This document shows positions 47,663-64,000 of a DNA stretch of 64,000 bases, one piece after another. The position numbers and the translations under genes were made by a program. Within the stretch, counting starts at the first letter, position 1; the number at the start of each line of letters is the position of its first letter. Source of the stretch: Clostridiales bacterium Firm_10 (GTDB lineage Bacteria > Bacillota > Clostridia > Christensenellales > Aristaeellaceae); contig LVAP01000007.1 in assembly GCA_001603025.1 (NCBI GenBank), positions 62,001 to 126,000 of the forward strand, read 5' to 3'. The notes below the pieces were generated by a model, which was not told the origin of the DNA, ran no database searches, and worked only from the letters and a program-made list of their open reading frames with translations.

Positions 47663-50068
47663 TCAGCCAACCACAGAGGCAATGGCAGGTTCCGCATTGC
47701 AGTTCACCAGCTCAAACTGAGTGGGCTGATCAAAAGGAGCGCCGTTTGCGGCCATTTCGTCACTATAGAAACCGCTGCCCACGATGTCTCCGATCCCCTC
47801 CGCGTTTGCCCCGGCTATCACGGTGACACCCAGCGCCTGGCAATTGGTGAAGACGGTCACAGGCATGCCGAGTCCTTCGACCGGATAGCCGCCCGCATAG
47901 CCGGTGATGCCGCCGATCCAACGGCAGTTGTCGCCCGCAGTGATGGTAACATCCTGCGCGGTCAGGTTTGTGAATTGCTCCGAGGTAAAGCCGCAGCCGG
48001 AGATACCGCCGATGCCATAGCAGCTATTTCCGGCGGTCACAGACCCGGTGGCCTTACAGTCCACAACGCTGGTCATTTGCAGTCCGCCGCCCACAATGCC
48101 CGCGTTCGCGGTATTGTCCGGGATCACAATATCAGCCTGCGCCTCGCAGCCGGTGATGAGGCTGCCCAGGCCCGCTCCGGCGATGCCGCCGTACATGCCT
48201 TCCTCACTCATCTCGGTCCAGTGTGCGGTCACCTTACCGTTCAACAGCTTCACATCAGAAATGGTGGAGCAGTAGGTATAACCGACGACATCGGCGGTCA
48301 TGACGCTGCCGTCCACGGCGGCGTTTTCCAGCGTGAAATTGCCGATCTCCGCGTTGGCTATGCAGCCGAACAGACCCAGTGCCCAGCCTTCCGGCTGATG
48401 GACAGTCAGGTTGCGGATGGTATGGCCCTGACCGTCAAACGTCCCGGTGAAGGCGACCGTCAGATCGGGGATTTCTCCCTCTTCGCCGCCTCCCATAACG
48501 AATGCGCCGATGGGCGTCCATTCCATGCCCGCCAGGTCGATATCCGCAGTCAGCACATAATGGCCGGAAGGATTCTCATTGATCGCCGCCAGTTTTTGCG
48601 CTGAATCGATTTCGACTGCATCCGCCTGCTCCTGGAACAATTCGCCCACATTTTCATCCACGAACAGCTTGATGCAGGCCTTGATCAGCTTGTCGCTATA
48701 CCCATCCTGAATCGCGCCGGCAAGCCAGTAGGCGTAGGAACCGTCGGTGTAACTGCCCATGTTCTCAAGGGATTCGCCATAACGGAACTCGATGTGCTGA
48801 GTCTCGGCCAGCGTGTCGTCGCTGAACGCAAAGCAGGTAAACATCCCCGCGTCCGCGTCTTCCGTCCGATAGACATGCAACACGGCGGGCATTTCCTCGC
48901 CAAAGTAGGTGACGGGCACGTCCTCCGCATAGGTGTAAGCATGGCGGAACAGCTCGTCGCCCTCCGCGTCGACGCCGGAGATCACATTGCCGTTGACGGT
49001 TACCCTGGCAATGCCGTTTTCAAAAAAGCAGTCAAAGAGCATGCCGGCTGGATCGTCGCCGTAGGCGTCGACGGCTTCCTGCCCGCACAGGCGGCCCATG
49101 AACCGGGTGGTCAGCATGGCATAAAAGCCCTCGGCTGTTTCGTCGTCCACCGGATACGCTTTGATGCACTCCATCCAGTAGTCCTTGTATTCCTCTTTGG
49201 CAAATTCGGGGAACAGCTCAATGTAGGTATCGCTGAGAGCCGCCAGCCGCTGATCCGCCGCGATGCTGACCGCCGTATCGAAAGCATAATGCCCGTCTTT
49301 CGTCAGGTATTCGATGGAAACGATGGTCTTGCCCTTCAGCGCGTCGTAGACGTCGCTGTCAAAGTCGAAGCCCAGCGCCGCGCCGCGCCAGATATTGGCG
49401 ATATGGCGCAGGCCGACCCTTGTGCCGTCGTCCGCAGCCAGGATGACGCCGCTGACCTGCTGGTCCCCAAGCGCGTCCGAAATGCCGCTCACGGCGATGA
49501 CCTGATCGGCGTGCTTGTCGTACCGGAGGGAAGCGGAAGCCTTCACCGTTTCCGCCCCGGCGCTGACCGCGCTGAAAACGGGCCGTCCGTCCGCGACGGT
49601 CAGAGTCTTATACTGGGCCGGTGCTTCCGCCAGCGCATACCATGAATAGCTGAGGGCTTCAAACAGCGCGTCCCTGCCCTCGTAAACCGTGGTCGTCTCC
49701 TTGCCCTTGTTGGTCACGGTGATTTCCACGCTTGCGTCATCTGTGATCTCCGTGCCGCCAAGCGCCGCCAGCACGGAAGCATCCTCCACATACACGGGGA
49801 AGGTCACGCCGGAAATATCCGTGCCCGCCGGATCCTCATGATAGGAGCCTCCGGCCAGGCCGCCGGTGCGCGGCTTCATCTGGGTGGCGGAAGTCACCGC
49901 ATCCATCGCAGCCGCATCCGTCACCTCGGCGGCGTAGAATTCCGCGTAAGGGATGTTCATCAGCACATACGCGCCGTTCCCACCCTCCGCCTGGGAGAAA
50001 GAGCTGAAAACAACCAGCAGAAGCAATGCAACAGCAAAGGGTACCAGCTTGTTCAGGATTCGTTTCAT
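47663..50068 (-). CDS. Secreted ZinT-domain metal-binding protein with GLUG-type repeats
   Basis: This 801-residue protein has a signal peptide (about 1-27, ending SFSQA). The N-terminal part (33-265, with VLMNIPYAEFYAAE) may resemble a Tp47-type domain; this is tentative. Residues about 290-475 look like a ZinT (YodA) domain: YKDYWMECIKAY, VLHVYRTEDADAGMF and AETQHIEFRYG, where the ZinT H-x-H-x3-G motif is H425-x-E427-x3-G431. Residues about 515-800 contain GLUG-like repeats with glycine-rich turns (GGIAGAGLGSLITGC, GIGGISGCGF). ZinT proteins bind Zn and pass it to ABC importers, so cell-surface metal capture is likely. TTAG-N6-CTAA sites precede it. Confidence 0.75.
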   Translation of the reverse strand: MKRILNKLVPFAVALLLLVVFSSFSQAEGGNGAYVLMNIPYAEFYAAEVTDAAAMDAVTSATQMKPRTGGLAGGSYHEDPAGTDISGVTFPVYVEDASVLAALGGTEITDDASVEITVTNKGKETTTVYEGRDALFEALSYSWYALAEAPAQYKTLTVADGRPVFSAVSAGAETVKASASLRYDKHADQVIAVSGISDALGDQQVSGVILAADDGTRVGLRHIANIWRGAALGFDFDSDVYDALKGKTIVSIEYLTKDGHYAFDTAVSIAADQRLAALSDTYIELFPEFAKEEYKDYWMECIKAYPVDDETAEGFYAMLTTRFMGRLCGQEAVDAYGDDPAGMLFDCFFENGIARVTVNGNVISGVDAEGDELFRHAYTYAEDVPVTYFGEEMPAVLHVYRTEDADAGMFTCFAFSDDTLAETQHIEFRYGESLENMGSYTDGSYAYWLAGAIQDGYSDKLIKACIKLFVDENVGELFQEQADAVEIDSAQKLAAINENPSGHYVLTADIDLAGMEWTPIGAFVMGGGEEGEIPDLTVAFTGTFDGQGHTIRNLTVHQPEGWALGLFGCIANAEIGNFTLENAAVDGSVMTADVVGYTYCSTISDVKLLNGKVTAHWTEMSEEGMYGGIAGAGLGSLITGCEAQADIVIPDNTANAGIVGGGLQMTSVVDCKATGSVTAGNSCYGIGGISGCGFTSEQFTNLTAQDVTITAGDNCRWIGGITGYAGGYPVEGLGMPVTVFTNCQALGVTVIAGANAEGIGDIVGSGFYSDEMAANGAPFDQPTQFELVNCNAEPAIASVVG

Positions 50069-50115: not shown

Positions 50116-50182
50116 CTCATCGTCCCGATAAAAGCCGCGAAGCCTGCCTGAAGCGGATGCTTGCGCGGCGTTCATGAGTTAG
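50112..50182. repeat. Inverted repeat CTAACTCAT/ATGAGTTAG in the ZinT-gene leader
   Basis: CTAACTCAT (50112-50120) and ATGAGTTAG (50174-50182) are perfect inverted copies 53 bases apart. An inner CCGCG/CGCGG pair could extend them into one RNA stem. The outer arms overlap the two metal-type dyads. Confidence 0.5.
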
Positions 50183-50192
50183 ATTAATCTAA
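50179..50192. promoter_or_regulatory. DtxR-type dyad TTAG-N6-CTAA upstream of the ZinT-domain gene
   Basis: TTAGATTAATCTAA is a perfect palindrome of the type bound by DtxR/IdeR/MntR regulators. The same pattern occurs near 55130, 55155 and 55282. Confidence 0.7.
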
Positions 50193-54325: not shown

Positions 54326-54700
54326 TCACGGTTCCGTTCCCGTCAAATCGGCCTTCATGGCTTTGAACGCCTCATAGGAGGTTTCGCTCATTTCCCAGCT
54401 GAAGGAGATGGCGTCGCGCAGCGCCTGAGACGACTCAACGCCCGCGCTGGTCAGCCACTGCTGAAAAAACATGACCCGTTTGTTCAGCCGCTCAGCCCGC
54501 GCCTTGCTCAAATCCGTCAACACCAAATTGCCGTCTTCTTCGACGACAATCAGCCCCCGCTCCCGCAGCAGCCGGACGGCCGTGCTGACGGACGCCTTGG
54601 AAATGCCCAGATAATGCGCCACATCCACCGATCGAACGCACATATACCGATCGTGCAGCGTCCTTATCGTATATAAATACCGATCCAGCGACTGACTCAT
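54326..54700 (-). CDS. DtxR-family metal-dependent regulator
   Basis: This 124-residue protein has the DtxR/MntR winged HTH (SLDRYLYTIRTLHDRYMCVRS, VAHYLGISKASVSTAVRLLRERGLI) and the metal-binding dimerisation helices, but no C-terminal SH3-like domain. It would bind Fe or Mn and repress. Its ATG overlaps the AraC gene stop (ATGA). The TTAG-N6-CTAA dyads near the metal genes are of the DtxR-type and are its likely sites. Confidence 0.85.
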   Translation of the reverse strand: MSQSLDRYLYTIRTLHDRYMCVRSVDVAHYLGISKASVSTAVRLLRERGLIVVEEDGNLVLTDLSKARAERLNKRVMFFQQWLTSAGVESSQALRDAISFSWEMSETSYEAFKAMKADLTGTEP

Positions 54701-55137
54701 AGCGGCTCCTTCCTCTCGCCTGAAAGCCTGCTCCTCATGCGGTATTCGGTAGGCGTGCAGCCTTCCAGCTTGTTGAAAACATGCGCAAAATGGGAGGAGG
54801 AAACAAAGCCGGTTATCTCCCCGATCTCGGATATGCTCCGATCCGAGCCGGCCAGGAGTTCTTTGGCCTTCGCACAGCGAACGCAGTGATGATAGGAAAG
54901 CGGCGTACATCCGGTGTGCCGCTTAAAGGCGCGCAGCAGATAACTCCCATTCACGAACAGCGCGCCGGCCATCGTCTGGAGAGAAAACTTCTCCGCGCTG
55001 TGCGCTTCGATATAGGCCATGGCGGCCCGCGCCAGCGCCTCGCCGCCGGTTTCCCGTTCGGACGGCGAAGCCCTCCCCGATATGTTCTTCAAATCAAGGC
55101 CCCCTCCCGATTTGCATCCTCTCAGAGAATTAGCCAT
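54697..55137 (-). CDS. AraC-family HTH regulator
   Basis: This protein of up to 146 residues is mainly the C-terminal AraC DNA-binding domain (FSLQTMAGALFVNGSYLLRAFKRHTG; SISEIGEITGFVSSSHFAHVF) with little N-terminal sensor. ATG 55137 has no ribosome site and overlaps a metal-type dyad; TTG at L16 has a strong GGGAGGGG and could be the real start. It is translationally coupled to the DtxR-type gene. Confidence 0.8.
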   Translation of the reverse strand: MANSLRGCKSGGGLDLKNISGRASPSERETGGEALARAAMAYIEAHSAEKFSLQTMAGALFVNGSYLLRAFKRHTGCTPLSYHHCVRCAKAKELLAGSDRSISEIGEITGFVSSSHFAHVFNKLEGCTPTEYRMRSRLSGERKEPL

Positions 55138-55143
55138 ATCTAA
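55130..55143. promoter_or_regulatory. DtxR-type dyad at the AraC gene start
   Basis: TTAGCCATATCTAA fits TTAG-N6-CTAA and covers the ATG at 55137. Confidence 0.6.
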
Positions 55144-55154
55144 CCGCGCTCATA

Positions 55155-55168
55155 TTAGCATAATCTAA
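55155..55168. promoter_or_regulatory. DtxR-type dyad upstream of the AraC gene
   Basis: TTAGCATAATCTAA fits TTAG-N6-CTAA. It lies in the AT-rich part that should hold the AraC-DtxR promoter. Confidence 0.65.
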
Positions 55169-55281: not shown

Positions 55282-55295
55282 TTAGAAAATACTAA
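55282..55295. promoter_or_regulatory. DtxR-type dyad upstream of the FTR1 gene
   Basis: TTAGAAAATACTAA (within GTTAG-N6-CTAAC) fits TTAG-N6-CTAA, at about +4 to +18 of the predicted transcript, a repressor position. Confidence 0.7.
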
Positions 55296-55355
55296 CGCAA
55301 TGCGTCGCAGCCTTCTGCATTTGCCGGGAGGATGCAGGGGAAAGGAAGACTCATC

Positions 55356-57113
55356 ATGAAAAGAGGAAGGTTCGCCTGCCGCCTGCTGTGCGGCCTGATG
55401 ATATGGATCACTCTGGCGCTGTCGCTTAACGGCCTGGCGGAGGAAGCGGCCTCCACCCGCTGGGCGGACGCGGCGGATGAAATCGATAAATTCCTGGACG
55501 CGGCCTTTGAAGCCTATCTGGACGGCGATCCGGATGCCGCCTACAGCAATGTGAGCAACGCCTATTTCCGGGTGTATGAGACAACCGGGTTCGAGCGTCA
55601 GACCATGAGCTACATTTCAGGCAACCGCAAGAACGCCGTGGAGATGCAGTTCTCGGCCTGCAAGGCGGCTGTCAAAAAGGAAAACGAGACTCTGGACACC
55701 AAAATCGCCGTGCGCAGTGCCCTTCAAAAGCTCAAGGCCATGATCCGCGAGGACGGCAACAAGCTGGCCGCCATGCAGGACGGCGTACAGAGCGAGACAA
55801 AATACTACCTGCGGGGTGAGCTGGTTTCTTCCGATCCCTACGCCGATTTCAGCGCCGATCCCAACGCGGCCGCAAAATACGAAAACTGGTATGAGGCCGC
55901 GACGCTGGTGAAGGAGCTGCTGGATACCGCCTACATGGGGTATCTGGACAAGGACTTCGAAGCGGCGGCGGATAACCTGAACACCGCCTATTACTCGGTA
56001 TACGAGGAATCCGGACTCGACCACGCCATCTATGCCGATCTCTCCCTGAAAGACCGGCAGGCTATGGAGAAGCACTTCACCAATCTTCGTTCTCTGGTCT
56101 CCTCCGGAGAAGAAAAGTATCAGAAGAACAAATTCCGCACCTCCACTGACGCGGCCAAGAACGCGATTCTGAAATACGCCAAAGCCATCGACGAGAAGAA
56201 CGAGGAAGCCAGGGCCGCGGCCGCTGCAGAAGCCGCGGAGAAGGCCGCTGCGGAAGCGGAACAGACTGAAGCAAAGCAGAGCGACCCGAAGCTGCTCACC
56301 TTCCTGGGAGCTTTCGGCATCATCGTGCGCGAGGGCCTGGAGGCCATCCTGGTCATCGCCGCCATCATCGCCCATCTCATGAAGAGCGGCAACGGCAGGC
56401 GCCTGAAAAACGTATATCTCGGCGCAGCCGCCGGCGTGGCCGCCAGCTTCGTCGCCGCCGCCGTGCTGGCCTGGGCCAAGCGGGCGTTCGTAGGCGCGGG
56501 GCTGGCGCAGGAGGTCATCGAGGGCATCACCGCCCTGATCGCCGTGTGCGTGTTGTTCTACGTGAGCAACTGGATGATCTCCAAAGCGGAAGCCGCCTCC
56601 TGGAGCCGCTATATCGACGGCAAGGTGCAGTCCTCCGTGGAACAGGGCAGCGCCTTCGCCCTGGCCTTCACCGCCTTCCTCTCCGTATTCCGGGAAGGCG
56701 CGGAGGTGGTGCTGTTCTATCAGCCCATGCTCTCCGAGGGCAATCCCGGCATGGTGTGGGCCGGCTTCGCGACGGGCTGCGTGCTGCTGGTGTTCGTATA
56801 TCTGGCCATCACCAAGCTGTCCATCAAACTGCCCATCCGGGTGTTCTTCACCGCCACGTCGATCCTGATGGCCGTGATGTGCGTTTCCTTCCTGGGCAGC
56901 GGCATCAAGGAACTGGCCGAGGGCAACGTGTTCGACCTGGCCCTCCGCGTGCCCGGCATCCCGGAGAACGACGTGATCCAGATCTTCGGCGTGTACCCCT
57001 GGCTGGAGACGCTGGTGCCGCAGCTGATCCTCTCGATCATCCTGCTGGTCACCTTCCTGATCGCCCACTACCGCGGAAAGATGGACGCACTGAAGGCGAA
57101 ATACGCCAAATGA
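55356..57113 (+). CDS. FTR1-family iron permease with duplicated extracytoplasmic N-terminal domain
   Basis: This 585-residue protein has a signal peptide (1-28), an extracytoplasmic helical region (about 35-310) made of two similar repeats (about 43-110 and 184-250), a Glu/Ala/Lys-rich linker, and a seven-helix membrane domain. The iron-permease REXXE motifs are REGLE (325-329) and REGAE (446-450). It imports iron, probably Fe3+, with the P19 protein encoded next. AAAGGA precedes the ATG. Confidence 0.9.
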   Translation: MKRGRFACRLLCGLMIWITLALSLNGLAEEAASTRWADAADEIDKFLDAAFEAYLDGDPDAAYSNVSNAYFRVYETTGFERQTMSYISGNRKNAVEMQFSACKAAVKKENETLDTKIAVRSALQKLKAMIREDGNKLAAMQDGVQSETKYYLRGELVSSDPYADFSADPNAAAKYENWYEAATLVKELLDTAYMGYLDKDFEAAADNLNTAYYSVYEESGLDHAIYADLSLKDRQAMEKHFTNLRSLVSSGEEKYQKNKFRTSTDAAKNAILKYAKAIDEKNEEARAAAAAEAAEKAAAEAEQTEAKQSDPKLLTFLGAFGIIVREGLEAILVIAAIIAHLMKSGNGRRLKNVYLGAAAGVAASFVAAAVLAWAKRAFVGAGLAQEVIEGITALIAVCVLFYVSNWMISKAEAASWSRYIDGKVQSSVEQGSAFALAFTAFLSVFREGAEVVLFYQPMLSEGNPGMVWAGFATGCVLLVFVYLAITKLSIKLPIRVFFTATSILMAVMCVSFLGSGIKELAEGNVFDLALRVPGIPENDVIQIFGVYPWLETLVPQLILSIILLVTFLIAHYRGKMDALKAKYAK

Positions 57114-57195: not shown

Positions 57196-57753
57196 ATGAA
57201 GAAGTTTCTTGCCCTGCTGCTGGCTGCCCTGACGATCATGAGCTTTTCCGCCTTTGGTCTTGCCGATGATACGGAAGCTGGCTTTGACGAGTACGAGCTG
57301 GGCGTCGAGGGCGAACAGGATGTCGATTTCATGACCATGAGCATGGTGTATTTCCAGCCCGTCGACATGGCCCCCGCCGAGAACGCCACGCCCAAGGAAG
57401 GATCCGACCTGCACATCGAAGTGGACCTGACCGCCAATGAGAATCCCTACGGCTTCCCGGTGGACGGCTGGGTGCCCTACCTGAGCATCGACTTCGTCAT
57501 CAAGGACCTGGACGGCAAGGAAGTGTATTCCGGCTCCATGATGCCCATGGCGGCCTCCGACGGCCCCCACTACGGCAACAACATCCCGCTGCCCGAAGGC
57601 GAGTACACCATCACCCTGTACATCAAGAGCCCCGCTGAGAACGGCTACCTGCTCCACGTAGACGCCGAGACCGGCGTCGAAGCCAAGGAAGGCTTCTGGG
57701 CCGAGCCGCTGACCGCCACCTGGACGGGCTGGAAGTTCGTCAAGGAATGGTAA
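57196..57753 (+). CDS. P19/Tp34-type periplasmic or surface iron-binding protein
   Basis: This 185-residue protein has a signal peptide (about 1-23) and the P19 beta-sandwich: GEEQ-like acidic start, FMTMSMVYFQPVDMAP, SDLHIEVDLTANENPYGFPVDGWVPYL with His 73, and SDGPHYGNNIPLPEGEYT with His 125. P19 binds Cu2+ and Fe and works with FTR1 in bacteria such as Campylobacter. AAGGAGG precedes the ATG. No lipobox is seen, so it may be secreted or wall-bound in this Gram-positive-type cell. Confidence 0.92.
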   Translation: MKKFLALLLAALTIMSFSAFGLADDTEAGFDEYELGVEGEQDVDFMTMSMVYFQPVDMAPAENATPKEGSDLHIEVDLTANENPYGFPVDGWVPYLSIDFVIKDLDGKEVYSGSMMPMAASDGPHYGNNIPLPEGEYTITLYIKSPAENGYLLHVDAETGVEAKEGFWAEPLTATWTGWKFVKEW

Positions 57754-57784: not shown

Positions 57785-57823
57785 ATGCTGGCGCGTCATC
57801 CGCGGGGGAGGACGCGCCAGCAT
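57785..57823. other. Perfect 13-bp hairpin between the P19 and DUF2318 genes
   Basis: ATGCTGGCGCGTC (57785-57797) and GACGCGCCAGCAT (57811-57823) are perfect complements with a 13-base loop. There is no T tract on the + strand (GCGCGCG follows). It may stabilise the upstream mRNA or partially terminate, which could raise P19 over the membrane genes. Confidence 0.6.
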
Positions 57824-57862
57824 GCGCGCGTATACATACTCTGTTTGCCGGAGGTTTTCGCC

Positions 57863-59158
57863 GTGTTCAAATATCTCTGGATGGTGACGCAGGATCTGTT
57901 TCTCGCCGTCACCTTCGCCACGCTCATGCACGTCATGCTGGCCCGCCTGTTTGGCCGCAGGGGGCGGATGATCCACGGGATCGCCCTGAGCACGGGCGTT
58001 CTGGCCGCCGCAGCGCTGGCCATCGTCAAATTCAACTCCAAGCTCATCATTTCCAGCCATTGGAACCACTATATCTACGCCATAGTCATCGCGCTGACTG
58101 TCCTGATTCTGCCGCTTACCCTGCTGTTTGGCCGAAAGGAAAACAGGCCGATGAACGCGGGCGGCATTCTTCTGTGCGCCGCAGGCGCTCTGATGTCAGC
58201 CACACTGATTTTCTACGCCCTGCCCGGCGTGCTTCTGTATCCCTTCAGCTTCAACACCATGGGGCAGGGGTATCTGTCCTCCTATTACCTGGTGCGCCTG
58301 GCCGGGTGGCTGGGAGCGCTTGTCCTGCTGCTGATTTATGCGCGCCTGCTTGCCGGCTGCGCGTCTGATATAAAGCCCTTCGGCCTGGCGCCCCTCCTGC
58401 TGAACGCGGGCCTCCTGTCCTTCGCCGTGTACTGCTTCGGCCGCTTCTTCGTGCCCTGGGTGAATCGGGCCAAGTGGCTGAAATGGCCCGTGAAATACAC
58501 CGACGCGGCCTACGGCTGGATCGGAGACTGGATGATGTTCACCGCCAATCATTCCATGCTGTTCATCTGGATCGTCGCAGCGCTGGCCGCAGTGTTGGCC
58601 GCCGTCCTGTTCCGCCAGGGCACGGTCATTAAAGAACCCTACGACAATCCCGCCCGGCTGCGCAAGCTGAAGGCCCGCAACCGGCACTGGCGGCGCATGG
58701 CCGCGGGCGTGCTGGCGTGCCTGATCCTGTGCACGGTCATCATGACGACTGTAAAGGCCAACGATACAAAACAGGTGGAGCTTTCCGCCCCGGAGGCCTA
58801 CACGGTGGACAGGGACGCGGGCGTCATTCTGGTGAGCATGGAAAACGTGAGCGACGGGCACCTGCACCGCTTTGAATATAAGACTGAAAAGAACATCGAC
58901 GTACGCTGGATCGTTGTGAAAAAGCCGAATTCCGCCAGCTTCGGCGTGGGCCTGGACGCCTGCGAGGTGTGCGGCAACGCCGGCTACTTTGAGCGCAACG
59001 GGCAGATCATCTGTAAGCGCTGCGACGTGGTGATGAACATCAACACCATCGGCTTCAAGGGCGGCTGCAATCCCATTCCACTGGCCTACGAGGTGAAGGA
59101 CGGCAACCTGGTCTTCCGTCTGGAGGACATCGTCGCCGGGGAGAGAGAATTCAGATAA
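57863..59158 (+). CDS. DUF2318 membrane protein with Cys pairs
   Basis: This 431-residue protein has about eight transmembrane segments in its first 300 residues and a C-terminal extracytoplasmic DUF2318 domain. The Cys residues are C367 and C370 (DACEVCGNAGY), C384 and C387 (IICKRCDVVMNINTIG) and C402 (FKGGCNPIP). DUF2318 is predicted to bind a metal cluster or heme-like group and to pass electrons for iron reduction. It starts at GTG 57863, 8 bases after CGGAGG. It follows the P19 gene as in Campylobacter and E. coli iron loci. Confidence 0.88.
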   Translation: MFKYLWMVTQDLFLAVTFATLMHVMLARLFGRRGRMIHGIALSTGVLAAAALAIVKFNSKLIISSHWNHYIYAIVIALTVLILPLTLLFGRKENRPMNAGGILLCAAGALMSATLIFYALPGVLLYPFSFNTMGQGYLSSYYLVRLAGWLGALVLLLIYARLLAGCASDIKPFGLAPLLLNAGLLSFAVYCFGRFFVPWVNRAKWLKWPVKYTDAAYGWIGDWMMFTANHSMLFIWIVAALAAVLAAVLFRQGTVIKEPYDNPARLRKLKARNRHWRRMAAGVLACLILCTVIMTTVKANDTKQVELSAPEAYTVDRDAGVILVSMENVSDGHLHRFEYKTEKNIDVRWIVVKKPNSASFGVGLDACEVCGNAGYFERNGQIICKRCDVVMNINTIGFKGGCNPIPLAYEVKDGNLVFRLEDIVAGEREFR

Positions 59159-59170
59159 GGAGGACCGTTC

Positions 59171-60466
59171 ATGCTGTTTCGTATGATTCGCGGCGTGCTC
59201 TTTCACCAGAAGAGCAAGATGCTGCTGATCGCGCTGACCATCGCGCTGGGCGCGTCGCTGGCCACCGGCATGCTCAACGTGGTGCTGGGCGTGGAGGAAA
59301 AGGTCAACAAGGAACTGAAAAACTACGGGGCCAACATCGTGGTGAAGCCCAAGGATTCTTCGCTGCTCTCCGACATCTACGATGTGGGCGAAGGCGCGGA
59401 GCTGAACGCCGCGTATCTGCGCGAAGACGAGCTGGGCAAAATCAAGACCATCTTCTGGGCTTTCAACATCGTGGACTTCACGCCTTTCCTGGATACGCAG
59501 GCAATGCTGCCCGACGGAAGTCACGTCAGGATGACCGGCACCTGGTTCAATCACCACCTGGACCTGCCCACTGGCGAGAGCCTGGACGCGGGTGTGGTGG
59601 GCATGCGCTCCTGGTGGGACGTAACCGAGGGCCGCTGGCTGGATGAGAAAGACGAGAACGCCTCCTCCGAGATCATGGCCGGCGCGCTGCTGGCCCAGAA
59701 AATGGGCTGGCACGCAGGCGACACCGTGCACATCACCGCCTCGGCTGGGGAGAAGGACGTGACCATCGCCGGCGTCTACGACGCGGGCGGCGACGAGGAC
59801 GAGCAGATCTTCGCCACGTTGGATCTCGTTCAGGCGCTGACGGATCGGGAGAACAAGGTGGCCTCCATCGAGGTCTCCGCCCTCACCACCCCGGACAATG
59901 AGCTGGCCCGCCGGGCGGCCCGCAATCCCGCGGCGCTGAGCAGCCGCGACTACGAGACCTGGTACTGCACGGCCTATGTGAGCGCCATCTGTTATCAGAT
60001 TCAGGAGGTTGTCACCGGCTCGGTGGCCAGCGCCGTGCGCAAGGTGGCGGAGAGCGAGGGCACCATCCTCGACAAGACGAAGCTCCTGATGATCCTCATC
60101 ACCGCGCTGAGCCTCATCGGCTCGGCCCTGGGCATATCAAACCTCGTCACCGCCTCCGTGATGGAGCGCAGCCAGGAGATCGGCCTTTTGAAGGCCATCG
60201 GCGCGCGGGATCATTCCATCACCGGCGTGGTGATGACGGAGATTCTCATCACTGCTCTCATCGGCTTCGCGGGCGGATATTTCCTGGGCTTCGGCTTCGC
60301 CCAGCTCATCGGGCGCAGCGTGTTCTCATCGGCCATCGACATGAACCCACGGGTGATTCCCATCGTGGCGGGACTGATCGCCCTGGTCACCATCGCGGGC
60401 AGCCTGCCCGCCATCCGCATGGTGCTGCGCCTGCGGCCCGCGGAAGTGCTGCACGGCGGGCATTGA
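59171..60466 (+). CDS. ABC transporter permease 1 (FtsX/MacB type)
   Basis: This 431-residue protein has an N-terminal membrane segment, a large MacB-type periplasmic domain (about 50-290) and three C-terminal segments (from about 300) with the FtsX signature VMERSQEIGLLKAIGARDHS. The GGAGGACC site precedes ATG. It is the first of two adjacent permeases serving the iron operon's ATPase. Confidence 0.9.
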   Translation: MLFRMIRGVLFHQKSKMLLIALTIALGASLATGMLNVVLGVEEKVNKELKNYGANIVVKPKDSSLLSDIYDVGEGAELNAAYLREDELGKIKTIFWAFNIVDFTPFLDTQAMLPDGSHVRMTGTWFNHHLDLPTGESLDAGVVGMRSWWDVTEGRWLDEKDENASSEIMAGALLAQKMGWHAGDTVHITASAGEKDVTIAGVYDAGGDEDEQIFATLDLVQALTDRENKVASIEVSALTTPDNELARRAARNPAALSSRDYETWYCTAYVSAICYQIQEVVTGSVASAVRKVAESEGTILDKTKLLMILITALSLIGSALGISNLVTASVMERSQEIGLLKAIGARDHSITGVVMTEILITALIGFAGGYFLGFGFAQLIGRSVFSSAIDMNPRVIPIVAGLIALVTIAGSLPAIRMVLRLRPAEVLHGGH

Positions 60467-60479
60467 GGGAGGTAAGCGC

Positions 60480-61937
60480 ATGACGAAGAGAAGAATGTTT
60501 CTGCGCATGATCACGGCCTCGCTGCTGAGGCGGCGCTCCCGCATGCTCATCGCGCTTCTGTCCATCGGCATCGGCGCCACCATCCTGGCAGGCCTTGTGA
60601 CCATCTATGTGGACGTGCCCCGGCAGATGGGCGCGCAGTTCCGTTCCTATGGTGCGAACATGCTCATCCTGCCCAAAGAAGGCGGCGAGCTGAACAGCGC
60701 GAACCTGCAGAACGCACTGCTGGTCATTCCCGGCGACGCGCTGGTGGGCGCGGCCCCCTATCGCTACGTGCGCCTGGATATGACCAGCCGCCAGCAGTCC
60801 TTCACCGCGGCGGGCACGGACTTTTCGCAGATCGTAAAGACCAGCCCCTATTTCAGCGTGGAAGGCCGCTATCCCGAGAACACCCGGGAAATCCTGGTGG
60901 GCAAGGAAATTGCCGACACCATCGGCGTGAAGCTGGGCTCCACCATGGAACTAACATATCAGCCCGCGGCCTCGCCAGAGGACGCGTCCTCCGACGGAGA
61001 GGGCGTGTCTGGCGATACGCTGAGCGGCAGCGCCGAGGGCTTCGGCGGCGGCATGGTGTATGTGACCATTGAGGTGGACGACGGCGGGACAATCGCCTCG
61101 CTGTCTGTGGACGCCTCCACGCAGACGCCGGAGTTCGGCGGCACCGTGCCGAAGGATGAGGCGTTCCTCAGTCAGTTTATCGGAAAGAGCCTGCCCGTTG
61201 CGGAGGAGGACATCGACGCCGTTTCCGGCGCGACCATTACCTCCGAGGCTGTGGTCAAGGCCGTAAACGGCGCCCATAAGACCTCCGCTCCCACCCAGCC
61301 GCGCACGGTGATTTTCTCCGTGGCCGGCATTTTGACCACCGGCGGCGAGGAGGAGGATTACGTGTTCCTCTCCCTGGAGGACATGGAAGCCATGACCGGC
61401 ACGAATAAACTGGATGTGGCGGAACTGAGCGTGTCCGCCTCCGCGGATCAGCTGGAGGCTTGGGCAAACGTCATTTCCGAAGGCGGCGAGAGCGTTCAGG
61501 CCCGGCTGGTCAAGCGCGTGGCCCGTTCAGAAGCGGCAGTGCTGGAAAAGCTGACGGCGCTGGTGTTCCTGGTAACGCTGGTGGTGCTGCTGCTGACTAT
61601 GATCTGCGTGTCCACCACCATGATGGCGGTGGTCTCCGAGCGGCGGCGGGAGATCGGCCTGCGCAAGGCGCTGGGCGCGTCGGACGGCTCCATCCGGGCG
61701 GAGTTCTTGGGCGAGGGTCTGTTCCTCGGCCTGCTGGGCGGCGTGATGGGCGGTATACTGGGCTTTGTGTTCGCCCAGGTGGTCAGCGTGAATGTGTTCG
61801 GCTCCTCCATCACCTTTCAGCCGCTGCTGCTGCCTGCGGCCGTCGTCGTTTCCATGGCCATCGCGGCCCTGTCCTGCCTGCTGCCCATCCGGCGCGCCGT
61901 GGCCATCGACCCCGCGCTGGTACTGAAAGGAGAATGA
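60480..61937 (+). CDS. ABC transporter permease 2 with inserted FMN-binding domain
   Basis: This 485-residue protein is a MacB/FtsX-type permease with one N-terminal segment and three near the end (FtsX signature ERRREIGLRKALGASDGS). Its extracytoplasmic domain carries an extra block at about 192-266 with the FMN-binding (NqrC/RnfG-like) pattern: VTIEVDDGGTIASLSV and AVSGATITSEAVV. Thr 252 in SGAT is the residue that ApbE-type transferases load with FMN in NqrC and RnfG. An FMN carrier in the extracytoplasmic part suggests electron transfer, perhaps for Fe3+ reduction. GGAGGTAAG precedes ATG. Confidence 0.82.
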   Translation: MTKRRMFLRMITASLLRRRSRMLIALLSIGIGATILAGLVTIYVDVPRQMGAQFRSYGANMLILPKEGGELNSANLQNALLVIPGDALVGAAPYRYVRLDMTSRQQSFTAAGTDFSQIVKTSPYFSVEGRYPENTREILVGKEIADTIGVKLGSTMELTYQPAASPEDASSDGEGVSGDTLSGSAEGFGGGMVYVTIEVDDGGTIASLSVDASTQTPEFGGTVPKDEAFLSQFIGKSLPVAEEDIDAVSGATITSEAVVKAVNGAHKTSAPTQPRTVIFSVAGILTTGGEEEDYVFLSLEDMEAMTGTNKLDVAELSVSASADQLEAWANVISEGGESVQARLVKRVARSEAAVLEKLTALVFLVTLVVLLLTMICVSTTMMAVVSERRREIGLRKALGASDGSIRAEFLGEGLFLGLLGGVMGGILGFVFAQVVSVNVFGSSITFQPLLLPAAVVVSMAIAALSCLLPIRRAVAIDPALVLKGE

Positions 61938-61939
61938 GC

Positions 61940-62614
<675 letters not shown>

Positions 62615-62626
62615 CAGGAGGCTTCC

Positions 62627-63013
62627 ATGAAGAAAGCGATGATCCCCGCCTGCGTAATGCTGGCGCTTTCACTGGTCGTGATCGTCGGCAGCCAGACTTT
62701 CCTCTCCCCCTGCGTCCATGAGGACGGCAGCTTTGGCCCGTGTCATTGGGCAGGACGGGCGCTCATGGGGCTCGGCTGCGCAAACGGCGTGCTGGCGCTG
62801 CTGGTTCTGATATTCAGAAAAGCGCGGTTCGGCGTGTATATGAGCGCAATGCCTGTGTGCCTGATGGGAATTTTGACGCCGGGCACGCTGATCGACCTGT
62901 GCCATATGAGCACGATGCGCTGCCGGATGGTGATGCAGCCTGCCATGATTATCCTGTTCGCCGCCACCGGAATCGCGGCCCTGTTGGGAACGCTGTCAAG
63001 CGCGAAGGAGTAA
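62627..63013 (+). CDS. DUF4418 small membrane protein
   Basis: This 128-residue protein has four membrane segments (about 5-24, 42-62, 69-88 and 103-122) and conserved-looking Cys residues in LSPCVHEDGSFGPCHWAG and LIDLCHMSTMRC. DUF4418 proteins sit in FtsX-type ABC operons for iron or envelope systems; the role is unknown. The ATG follows AGGAGG. Confidence 0.8.
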   Translation: MKKAMIPACVMLALSLVVIVGSQTFLSPCVHEDGSFGPCHWAGRALMGLGCANGVLALLVLIFRKARFGVYMSAMPVCLMGILTPGTLIDLCHMSTMRCRMVMQPAMIILFAATGIAALLGTLSSAKE

Positions 63014-63016
63014 GCG

Positions 63017-64000
63017 ATGAGCAAGACGTTTTCCCTGTCCGCCAAAAACCTGATCAGGAAGCCGGGGCGCACCGCCATCCTTGCCCTGCTGACCGCCTTC
63101 CTCGCACTGGCGGTGTTCGGCGGCTCAGTGGTGGTACTGAGCCTGCGCAGCGGGCTGAACAGCCTGGAGGCCAGATTAGGCGCGGACATCATTCTTGTGC
63201 CCACCGAAGCCCAGAGTAAGGTGAGCTTCCAGAACATGTTCCTGCAGGGCACCACCGGCGCGTTCTATATGGATGCTTCTGCCCTGGAAAAGGTTACGGA
63301 GGTGGAAGGCGTGGAAAAGGCCGCGCCGCAGACCTTCCTGGCCTCCCTGAAGGCAGACTGCTGCTCCATCAAGATACAGGTGATCGGCATCGATCCCGAG
63401 AAAGACTTCACCGTTCAGCCCTGGATCGCGCGCAGCCTCACGAAGGAGCTCGGCGACATGGACGTGGCCGTGGGCTGTAAGGTGGAGGCGAACGTGGGCG
63501 AGATCATCCGCCTCTATGAGCAGCGCTGCAAGGTGGTGGCCAGGCTGGAAGCCACCGGCACCGGTCTGGACACGGCGGTCTACTGCAACATGGACACCAT
63601 GAACGCCCTGCTGAAGGCGGCGGAGGAAAAGGGTGTGAGCCACAAAATCGAAAGCGGCTCGGACGTGATTTCCGCCGTTTATATCAAGGTGAAGGACGGC
63701 TGCGACATCGATGCCGTGAACAGCAGGTTAAACGGGCATATACGCAAAGCCACCGCCGTGCGCACCCGCAGCATGATCACCGGCGTTTCGGACAGTCTGG
63801 CAGGCGTCAGCCGCACGGTATCTGGTTTGATCGTCGCGGTATGGATGCTGGCCTTCATCATCCTGCTGTTGGCCTTCGCGCTGATCATCCAGGAGCGAGC
63901 GCGGGAATTCGCTGTTCTGCGGCTGCTCGGCTCATCCAGGAGGATGCTTTCGCGCATGGTGCTCACTGAGTCCGCGCTGTGCGGGCTGCTGGGCGGCATA
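63017..64000 (+). CDS. FtsX-type ABC permease, third in the operon (3' end outside window)
   Basis: The frame is open from the ATG at 63017 (after AAGGAG) to the window end, giving 328 residues. It has an N-terminal segment (SAKNLIRKPGRTAILALL), a MacB-type periplasmic domain with GCKVEANVGEII and ATGTGLDTAVYC, and a membrane segment at about 270-292 followed by the FtsX stretch REFAVLRLLGSSRRML. It has no stop here, so more of the C-terminal segments lie outside. It may work with the same ATPase or another encoded further on. Confidence 0.85.
   Translation, partial: MSKTFSLSAKNLIRKPGRTAILALLTAFLALAVFGGSVVVLSLRSGLNSLEARLGADIILVPTEAQSKVSFQNMFLQGTTGAFYMDASALEKVTEVEGVEKAAPQTFLASLKADCCSIKIQVIGIDPEKDFTVQPWIARSLTKELGDMDVAVGCKVEANVGEIIRLYEQRCKVVARLEATGTGLDTAVYCNMDTMNALLKAAEEKGVSHKIESGSDVISAVYIKVKDGCDIDAVNSRLNGHIRKATAVRTRSMITGVSDSLAGVSRTVSGLIVAVWMLAFIILLLAFALIIQERAREFAVLRLLGSSRRMLSRMVLTESALCGLLGGI

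Follow-up and report, generated by a model that had tools for sequence, protein, structure and literature searches.

A flavin domain is built into one permease subunit of an ATP-binding cassette (ABC) transporter encoded in the iron operon of Clostridiales bacterium Firm_10. The gene lies in a stretch of 64,000 nucleotides of contig LVAP01000007.1 (the window, whose numbering is used throughout), and its product, FetC, is an FtsX-type permease with a flavin mononucleotide (FMN)-binding domain, FMN_bind, sitting within its extracytoplasmic head. The operon is the P19/FetMP-FetABCDEF iron system known from Gram-negatives (PMC6083913, PMC10783030), called sif in Bifidobacterium. We think it probable that FetC carries its own FMN and does the job of a separate lipoprotein of the SifE type, with the flavin relaying electrons to iron or to the membrane protein FetA. 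The features on which this proposal rests are:

60480 to 61937, plus strand: FetC (SifC-type), an FtsX/MacB permease of 485 amino acids with inserted FMN_bind domain (Pfam FtsX and FMN_bind; LolE/MacB structure matches).
61047 to 61274, plus strand: residues 190-265 of FetC, the FMN_bind domain, set into a hairpin loop on the extracytoplasmic head (Pfam; loops of uninserted homologues; fold model).
61215 to 61235, plus strand: ApbE motif D246-A-V-S-G-A-T252, with the codon of the acceptor Thr252 at 61233-61235.

The first-pass annotation, made from the letters alone, had described an FMN-binding domain inserted into an otherwise normal MacB-type permease, with Thr252 as the likely FMN site, and profile and structure searches bore out each part of this description. 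The open reading frame (ORF) at 60480-61937 is intact and encodes 485 residues. Pfam finds PF04205 across residues 190-265 (E 3.8e-13), scoring 50.3 bits where the cut-off is 22, and the block searched by itself also matches the FMN-binding family (E 5.1e-15). The SGAT of FetC begins at residue 249, which makes T252 the acceptor position, and D246-A-V-S-G-A-T252 fits exactly the published seven-residue ApbE motif, D-x-x-[ST]-G-A-[ST] (PMC12052999), which appears by chance in 102 of 20,000 shuffles of FetC. AlphaFold modelled the isolated block with a mean pLDDT of 93.6, and its thirteen top structural matches are all covalent-FMN proteins, namely NqrC, RnfG, CbFMN4 and SaFMN3 (Z 7.5-10.2 over 83-92 residues). 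These proteins share the fold and the ApbE motif and are the nearest sequence relatives of the inserted domain, but they are respiratory subunits or surface proteins rather than parts of ABC transporters (PMC10339131).

The remainder of FetC has the hallmarks of an FtsX/MacB/LolE (type VII) permease: an FtsX domain (PF02687, residues 364-478, E 3.2e-22), an overall model that resembles LolE and MacB (LolE best, Z 18.7; Foldseek 1.6e-18) and an adjoining gene for a MacB-type ATPase, FetD. Uninserted homologues have a short hairpin loop at the position of the FMN_bind domain, between residues about 160 and 276. In FtsX/MacB-type permeases this loop region belongs to the extracytoplasmic head, which lies in the compartment where ApbE works. 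Flavinylation of Thr252 by ApbE is well supported, and FetC would carry covalent FMN in the cell.

Among 60 relatives screened, nine further genomes matched, eight of them with the fused form and one with the match split around the insert. A scan of named genomes yielded 80 loci, each spanning residues 1-485 and nearly all from metagenome-assembled genomes of rumen or gut Clostridia. Across the 94 distinct homologues with the insert, D246 and G250 are invariant (94 of 94), as are A251, T252 and S255 in the 93 rows readable at those positions, one locus (L071) being broken at the ApbE motif. Median dN/dS is 0.18 for the domain, 0.11 for the permease core and 0.32 for the linkers, which argues that the inserted domain is not a decaying passenger. 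We also considered an artefact or a recent foreign insert; both were ruled out by the intact ORF in 94 distinct proteins and by the GC content at third codon positions, which is 0.829 in the insert and 0.825 and 0.843 in the core.

Other operons carry the flavin on a separate protein. A genome of the same genus as the window (G004) has a FetC without insert, and a gene for a separate FMN_bind lipoprotein directly follows its fetD. An uninserted FetC of this type occurs in six operons, each of which also has the separate FMN gene on its strand. The fused operons were found to have no such gene on their strand within 4 kb, and this holds for the 93 loci whose downstream sequence extends for 1.5 kb or more. 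The two arrangements exclude each other (Fisher p 2e-9 over 81 distinct rows, in which relatives are not independent). In a tree of FetC built without the insert columns, by a quick search with long branches flagged, the fused forms make up one clade (SH-aLRT 100), and the separate-type G004 and G087 from the same family fall outside it. The sequences therefore point to a single origin of the insert in the window's family.

A simple fusion of the operon's own SifE-type gene into FetC could account for this pattern, but it was rejected on the bit scores of the inserted domain, which are 51-75 against domains of surface multi-flavin proteins, 36-51 against RnfG and only 24-31 against the separate operon FMN proteins. 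The closest sequence match in the PDB is one domain of the multi-flavin protein CbFMN4. Because the inserted domain is nearer to the surface and RnfG types than to the separate lipoprotein, an FMN domain of other descent appears to have replaced the separate protein. The swap counts as functional-replacement evidence for the flavin's role and for its location beside FetC.

If FetC is flavinylated, an ApbE transferase should be available, and the first-pass annotation had proposed to look for apbE in the genome, near homologues. The window's genome has one ApbE (E 1.5e-85), together with an RNF complex. Within the window's family ApbE is found in 183 of 200 genomes and RnfD/NqrB in 180 of 200, so that its presence there is uninformative, since nearly all genomes have both. 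Relatives that lack RNF were more telling. Three genomes with the separate form from outside the window's family (G541, G397 and G422; 99-100% complete) have no RnfD/NqrB, one ApbE and one FMN_bind protein, that of the operon itself, whereas in six RNF-free genomes whose P19 operon lacks the FMN gene, both ApbE and FMN_bind proteins are absent. This is a small sample (three and six genomes), compared with no phylogenetic correction. About 2 kb separates apbE from the FTR1 gene in G541 and G397, with TonB/ExbD-like genes in between. In two separate-type operons (L116:1-1603, L115:13707-14818) the interval from apbE to FTR1 is occupied by such ExbD- and TonB-like genes, which suggests diderm hosts in which outer-membrane uptake may be linked to the P19 system.

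The genes around fetC confirm the earlier description of an iron operon with a Cys-rich DUF2318 protein. The gene order is FTR1-P19-FetA(DUF2318)-FetB-FetC(FMN)-FetD, and the neighbours in the window are:

55332 to 57113, plus strand: FTR1/EfeU-type iron permease with an N-terminal extension, start probably at 55356 (PF03239, E 3.6e-27; REGxE motifs).
57196 to 57753, plus strand: P19/FetP iron-binding protein (PF10634, E 8.6e-46).
57785 to 59158, plus strand: FetA, membrane protein with FtrD-like/DUF2318 five-Cys domain (PF10080, E 1.9e-28); its start is probably the GTG at 57863, where homologues begin.
59171 to 60466, plus strand: FetB, the partner FtsX/MacB permease (PF02687, E 2.2e-19; MacB_PCD, E 1.7e-14).
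61940 to 62614, plus strand: FetD, MacB/LolD-type ATPase (PF00005, E 3.5e-35).
62627 to 63013, plus strand: DUF4418 membrane protein (PF14387, E 2.4e-18).
63017 to 64000, plus strand: third FtsX permease, truncated where the window ends and 400 amino acids long in the contig (profile match).

FTR1, P19, the DUF2318 protein and the two FtsX permeases with their ATPase define the system, and all five partners are present in 62 of 62 complete fused loci. FTR1 is likely to be the iron permease. The CxxC..CxxC..C motif of FetA is complete in 96 of 96 operons (80 of 80 fused, 6 of 6 separate and 10 of 10 other). Short DUF2318 proteins of about 200 amino acids elsewhere in the phylum were set aside, as they belong to other clusters with no FTR1 or P19 matches.

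Two relatives of this system have been studied genetically. In Campylobacter jejuni, fetMP-fetABCDEF shares FTR1, P19, the DUF2318 protein, two FtsX-type permeases and the ATPase, and all components are needed at low iron, but it has the thioredoxin-like FetE and FetF and no flavin (PMC10783030). No thioredoxin-like gene was found here from FTR1 to the window end. In Bifidobacterium breve, the iron-regulated bfeUO/sifABCDE genes, known since 2017, encode an eight-transmembrane SifA at the FetA position, the FtsX permeases SifB and SifC, the ATPase SifD and the FMN-binding SifE; sif mutants are chelator-sensitive, and insertions in sifE itself confer sensitivity to iron chelators (PMC5449479). 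SifE is, however, a separate membrane-associated protein, whereas FetC, the equivalent of SifC, has the FMN domain within it and no separate gene is left. That flavin has a role in P19 clusters was put forward in 2021 by Meheust et al., who described clusters combining FTR1 and P19 with an FMN-binding domain and suggested a redox role in iron uptake; the FMN-binding clusters were mostly Gram-positive, and the Gram-negative form had thioredoxins (PMC8238504). The flavin link and SifE are therefore known. The insertion into the permease, its single origin, the descent from a different flavodomain family and a diheme variant described below were not found in the literature searched, which did not cover the supplement of PMC8238504 (260 clusters), and to that extent appear to be new.

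How might a flavin on FetC serve iron uptake? We propose that, in one ancestor within this family, an RnfG/surface-type flavodomain entered FetC and the separate gene disappeared. In its descendants, iron starvation would derepress the operon and ApbE would attach FMN to Thr252 of the domain on the outer head of FetC. The flavin would then take electrons from a membrane donor and deliver them to P19/FTR1-bound iron or to FetA's five-Cys centre, and this relay would keep iron in a state that FTR1 can import. FetA, with its conserved cysteines, is likely to be a neighbour in the relay, to judge from sequence. Mechanotransmission from the outer side of the membrane is how FtsX/MacB-type transporters work (PMC5985334). 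The ATPase cycle of FetB-FetC-FetD may thus shift the flavin-bearing head between donor and acceptor, rather than pumping iron. A stronger version, in which FetBCD would use ATP hydrolysis to carry or gate electrons physically on their way from the membrane donor to iron on P19/FTR1, we regard as possible but doubtful.

What fills the place of the flavin in other operons is consistent with electron transfer as the common thread. The slot is taken by FMN in FetC here, by an FMN lipoprotein in relatives and by thioredoxins in Gram-negatives (PMC8238504). In two distant P19 operons (L120, 8028-8303, and L123), the gene right after FetD encodes a small lipoprotein bearing two CxxCH heme motifs, and their genomes have neither ApbE nor FMN_bind. 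A Pfam scan of the L120 protein, the only one of the two scanned, gave sub-threshold matches to cytochrome c7 and to paired-CXXCH (multiheme cytochrome) families. These lipoproteins could possibly be a cytochrome replacement for the flavin. Beside the type II FetD genes, no thioredoxin was found and two diheme lipoproteins were seen.

Several points weigh against a flavin relay in FetC. The RNF of the window's genome accounts for its ApbE without FetC. An electron carrier is not visible alongside most type II operons, so a local gene does not fill the carrier slot in every case. No Fe-S cluster has been proven in FetA, and the membrane electron donor is putative. Finally, the B. breve sif mutants are sensitive to ferrous chelators and not to ciclopirox, which the authors read as ferrous uptake (PMC5449479), and in relatives of FTR1 the oxidation of Fe2+ is believed to be coupled to uptake (PMC11966278). 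Neither point sits well with simple Fe3+ reduction. Reduction is nonetheless plausible, as the related flavodomain SaFMN3 has a redox potential of -184 mV (PMC10339131), which by analogy would be low enough to reduce many Fe3+ complexes and would favour giving electrons to Fe3+ over taking them from Fe2+. The first-pass annotation had suggested that a flavin on an ABC permease would link transport to extracytoplasmic electron flow, such as Fe3+ reduction. The link to electron flow is supported; Fe3+ reduction and FetA as the partner are tentative, as is any movement of iron by FetBCD.

At least four other roles for the domain can be envisaged. First, the flavin could set the redox state of the cysteines or an Fe-S centre in FetA, or in another secreted protein, and never contact iron. 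The thioredoxins FetE and FetF occupy the corresponding role in Gram-negatives and have disulfide activity in C. jejuni (PMC10783030, PMC8238504), and the five-Cys motif of FetA is complete throughout. Yet a cytochrome is incapable of thiol-disulfide exchange, and the diheme c-type lipoproteins of L120 and L123 thus favour an electron relay; we judge this maintenance role unlikely.

Second, electrons could flow the other way, with the flavin taking them from Fe2+ oxidised during uptake by FTR1 and passing them to FetA or the respiratory chain, so that an anaerobe would use it in place of a copper oxidase. The expected predominance of ferrous iron in the rumen counts in favour of this direction. 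So do the proposed use of Fe2+ oxidation energy by FTR1/FtrC systems (PMC11966278) and the sensitivity of sif mutants to ferrous chelators only (PMC5449479). However, at the -184 mV of the related domain (PMC10339131) the flavin would be a poor acceptor from Fe2+ unless Fe3+ were very tightly bound, and we consider oxidation rather improbable.

Third, the redox state of the flavin could gate the FetBCD ATPase with no net electron transport. An insertion in the head of a mechanotransmission-type transporter would suit such gating, but electron carriage more readily explains the separate-protein version of relatives and the cytochrome and thioredoxin versions of other operons (PMC8238504), and a sensor seems very unlikely to us. 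Fourth, we give hardly any credence to a purely structural, unflavinylated insert: although the ApbE of the window's genome could serve RNF alone, the acceptor threonine is invariant (93 of 93) in an exact ApbE motif, dN/dS is 0.18, the domain replaced a separate FMN protein and ApbE tracks the operon flavin in RNF-free genomes.

According to the C. jejuni authors, it is still not clear what FetBCD does or transports (PMC10783030), and the role of FetBCD and that of the flavin or thioredoxin protein are two unsolved points of a widely conserved iron system. The presence of an unrelated FMN domain in FetC together with the loss of the separate flavin protein ties these points together, by suggesting that the flavin works at the permease head. 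FetC of this family of rumen and gut bacteria, whose relatives keep a separate flavin protein, would combine electron transfer and an ATP-driven transporter in one molecule, and it offers a one-protein target for finding out if the system works as an ATP-gated electron relay in iron uptake. If it does, this would be an ABC transporter of a kind that handles electrons.

Candidate control elements precede the operon:

54326 to 54910, minus strand: divergent DtxR-type (iron-dependent repressor) DNA-binding protein, candidate regulator (PF01325, E 2.9e-7).
55130 to 55168, plus strand: two TTAG-N6-CTAA dyads (55130-55143 and 55155-55168) 5' of FTR1, candidate operators (pattern match).
55282 to 55295, plus strand: third TTAG-N6-CTAA dyad, candidate operator (pattern match).

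The whole window holds four perfect dyads, against 0.05 expected, and three of them precede FTR1. This arrangement is conserved: 67 of 73 fused operons have at least one dyad within 400 bp of the FTR1 start, and 145 sites lie near FTR1 across the fused operons where 5 are expected. The fourth dyad (50179-50192) is about 110 bp upstream of a gene for an 801-residue secreted protein (47663-50068, minus strand), to which no family was assigned and which is perhaps in the same regulon.

The fused operons differ from the others in further respects. The DUF4418 gene is present in 61 of 69 fused operons and in none of the separate-type operons, and among those sampled it is confined to the fused clade. 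Together with an extra FtsX permease and ATPase, which 65 of 69 fused operons have, it makes up a module after FetD that was not seen in the separate-FMN operons (62627-64000; L017:7628-9899); in the window's contig this second ATPase lies just beyond the window end. FTR1 has a median length of 590 amino acids in the fused clade, with its long N-terminal extension (55332-57113), compared to 404 and 410 in other operons. Directly behind four fused operons (L078, L080, L085 and L087), a convergent gene on the opposite strand encodes a flavoprotein of about 840 amino acids with FMN_bind and FAD_binding_2 domains; this is a different, fumarate-reductase-like protein and not the separate operon FMN gene. 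A P19 operon whose FetC is of the other type has a two-domain FMN protein after FetD (L112:6339-7040).
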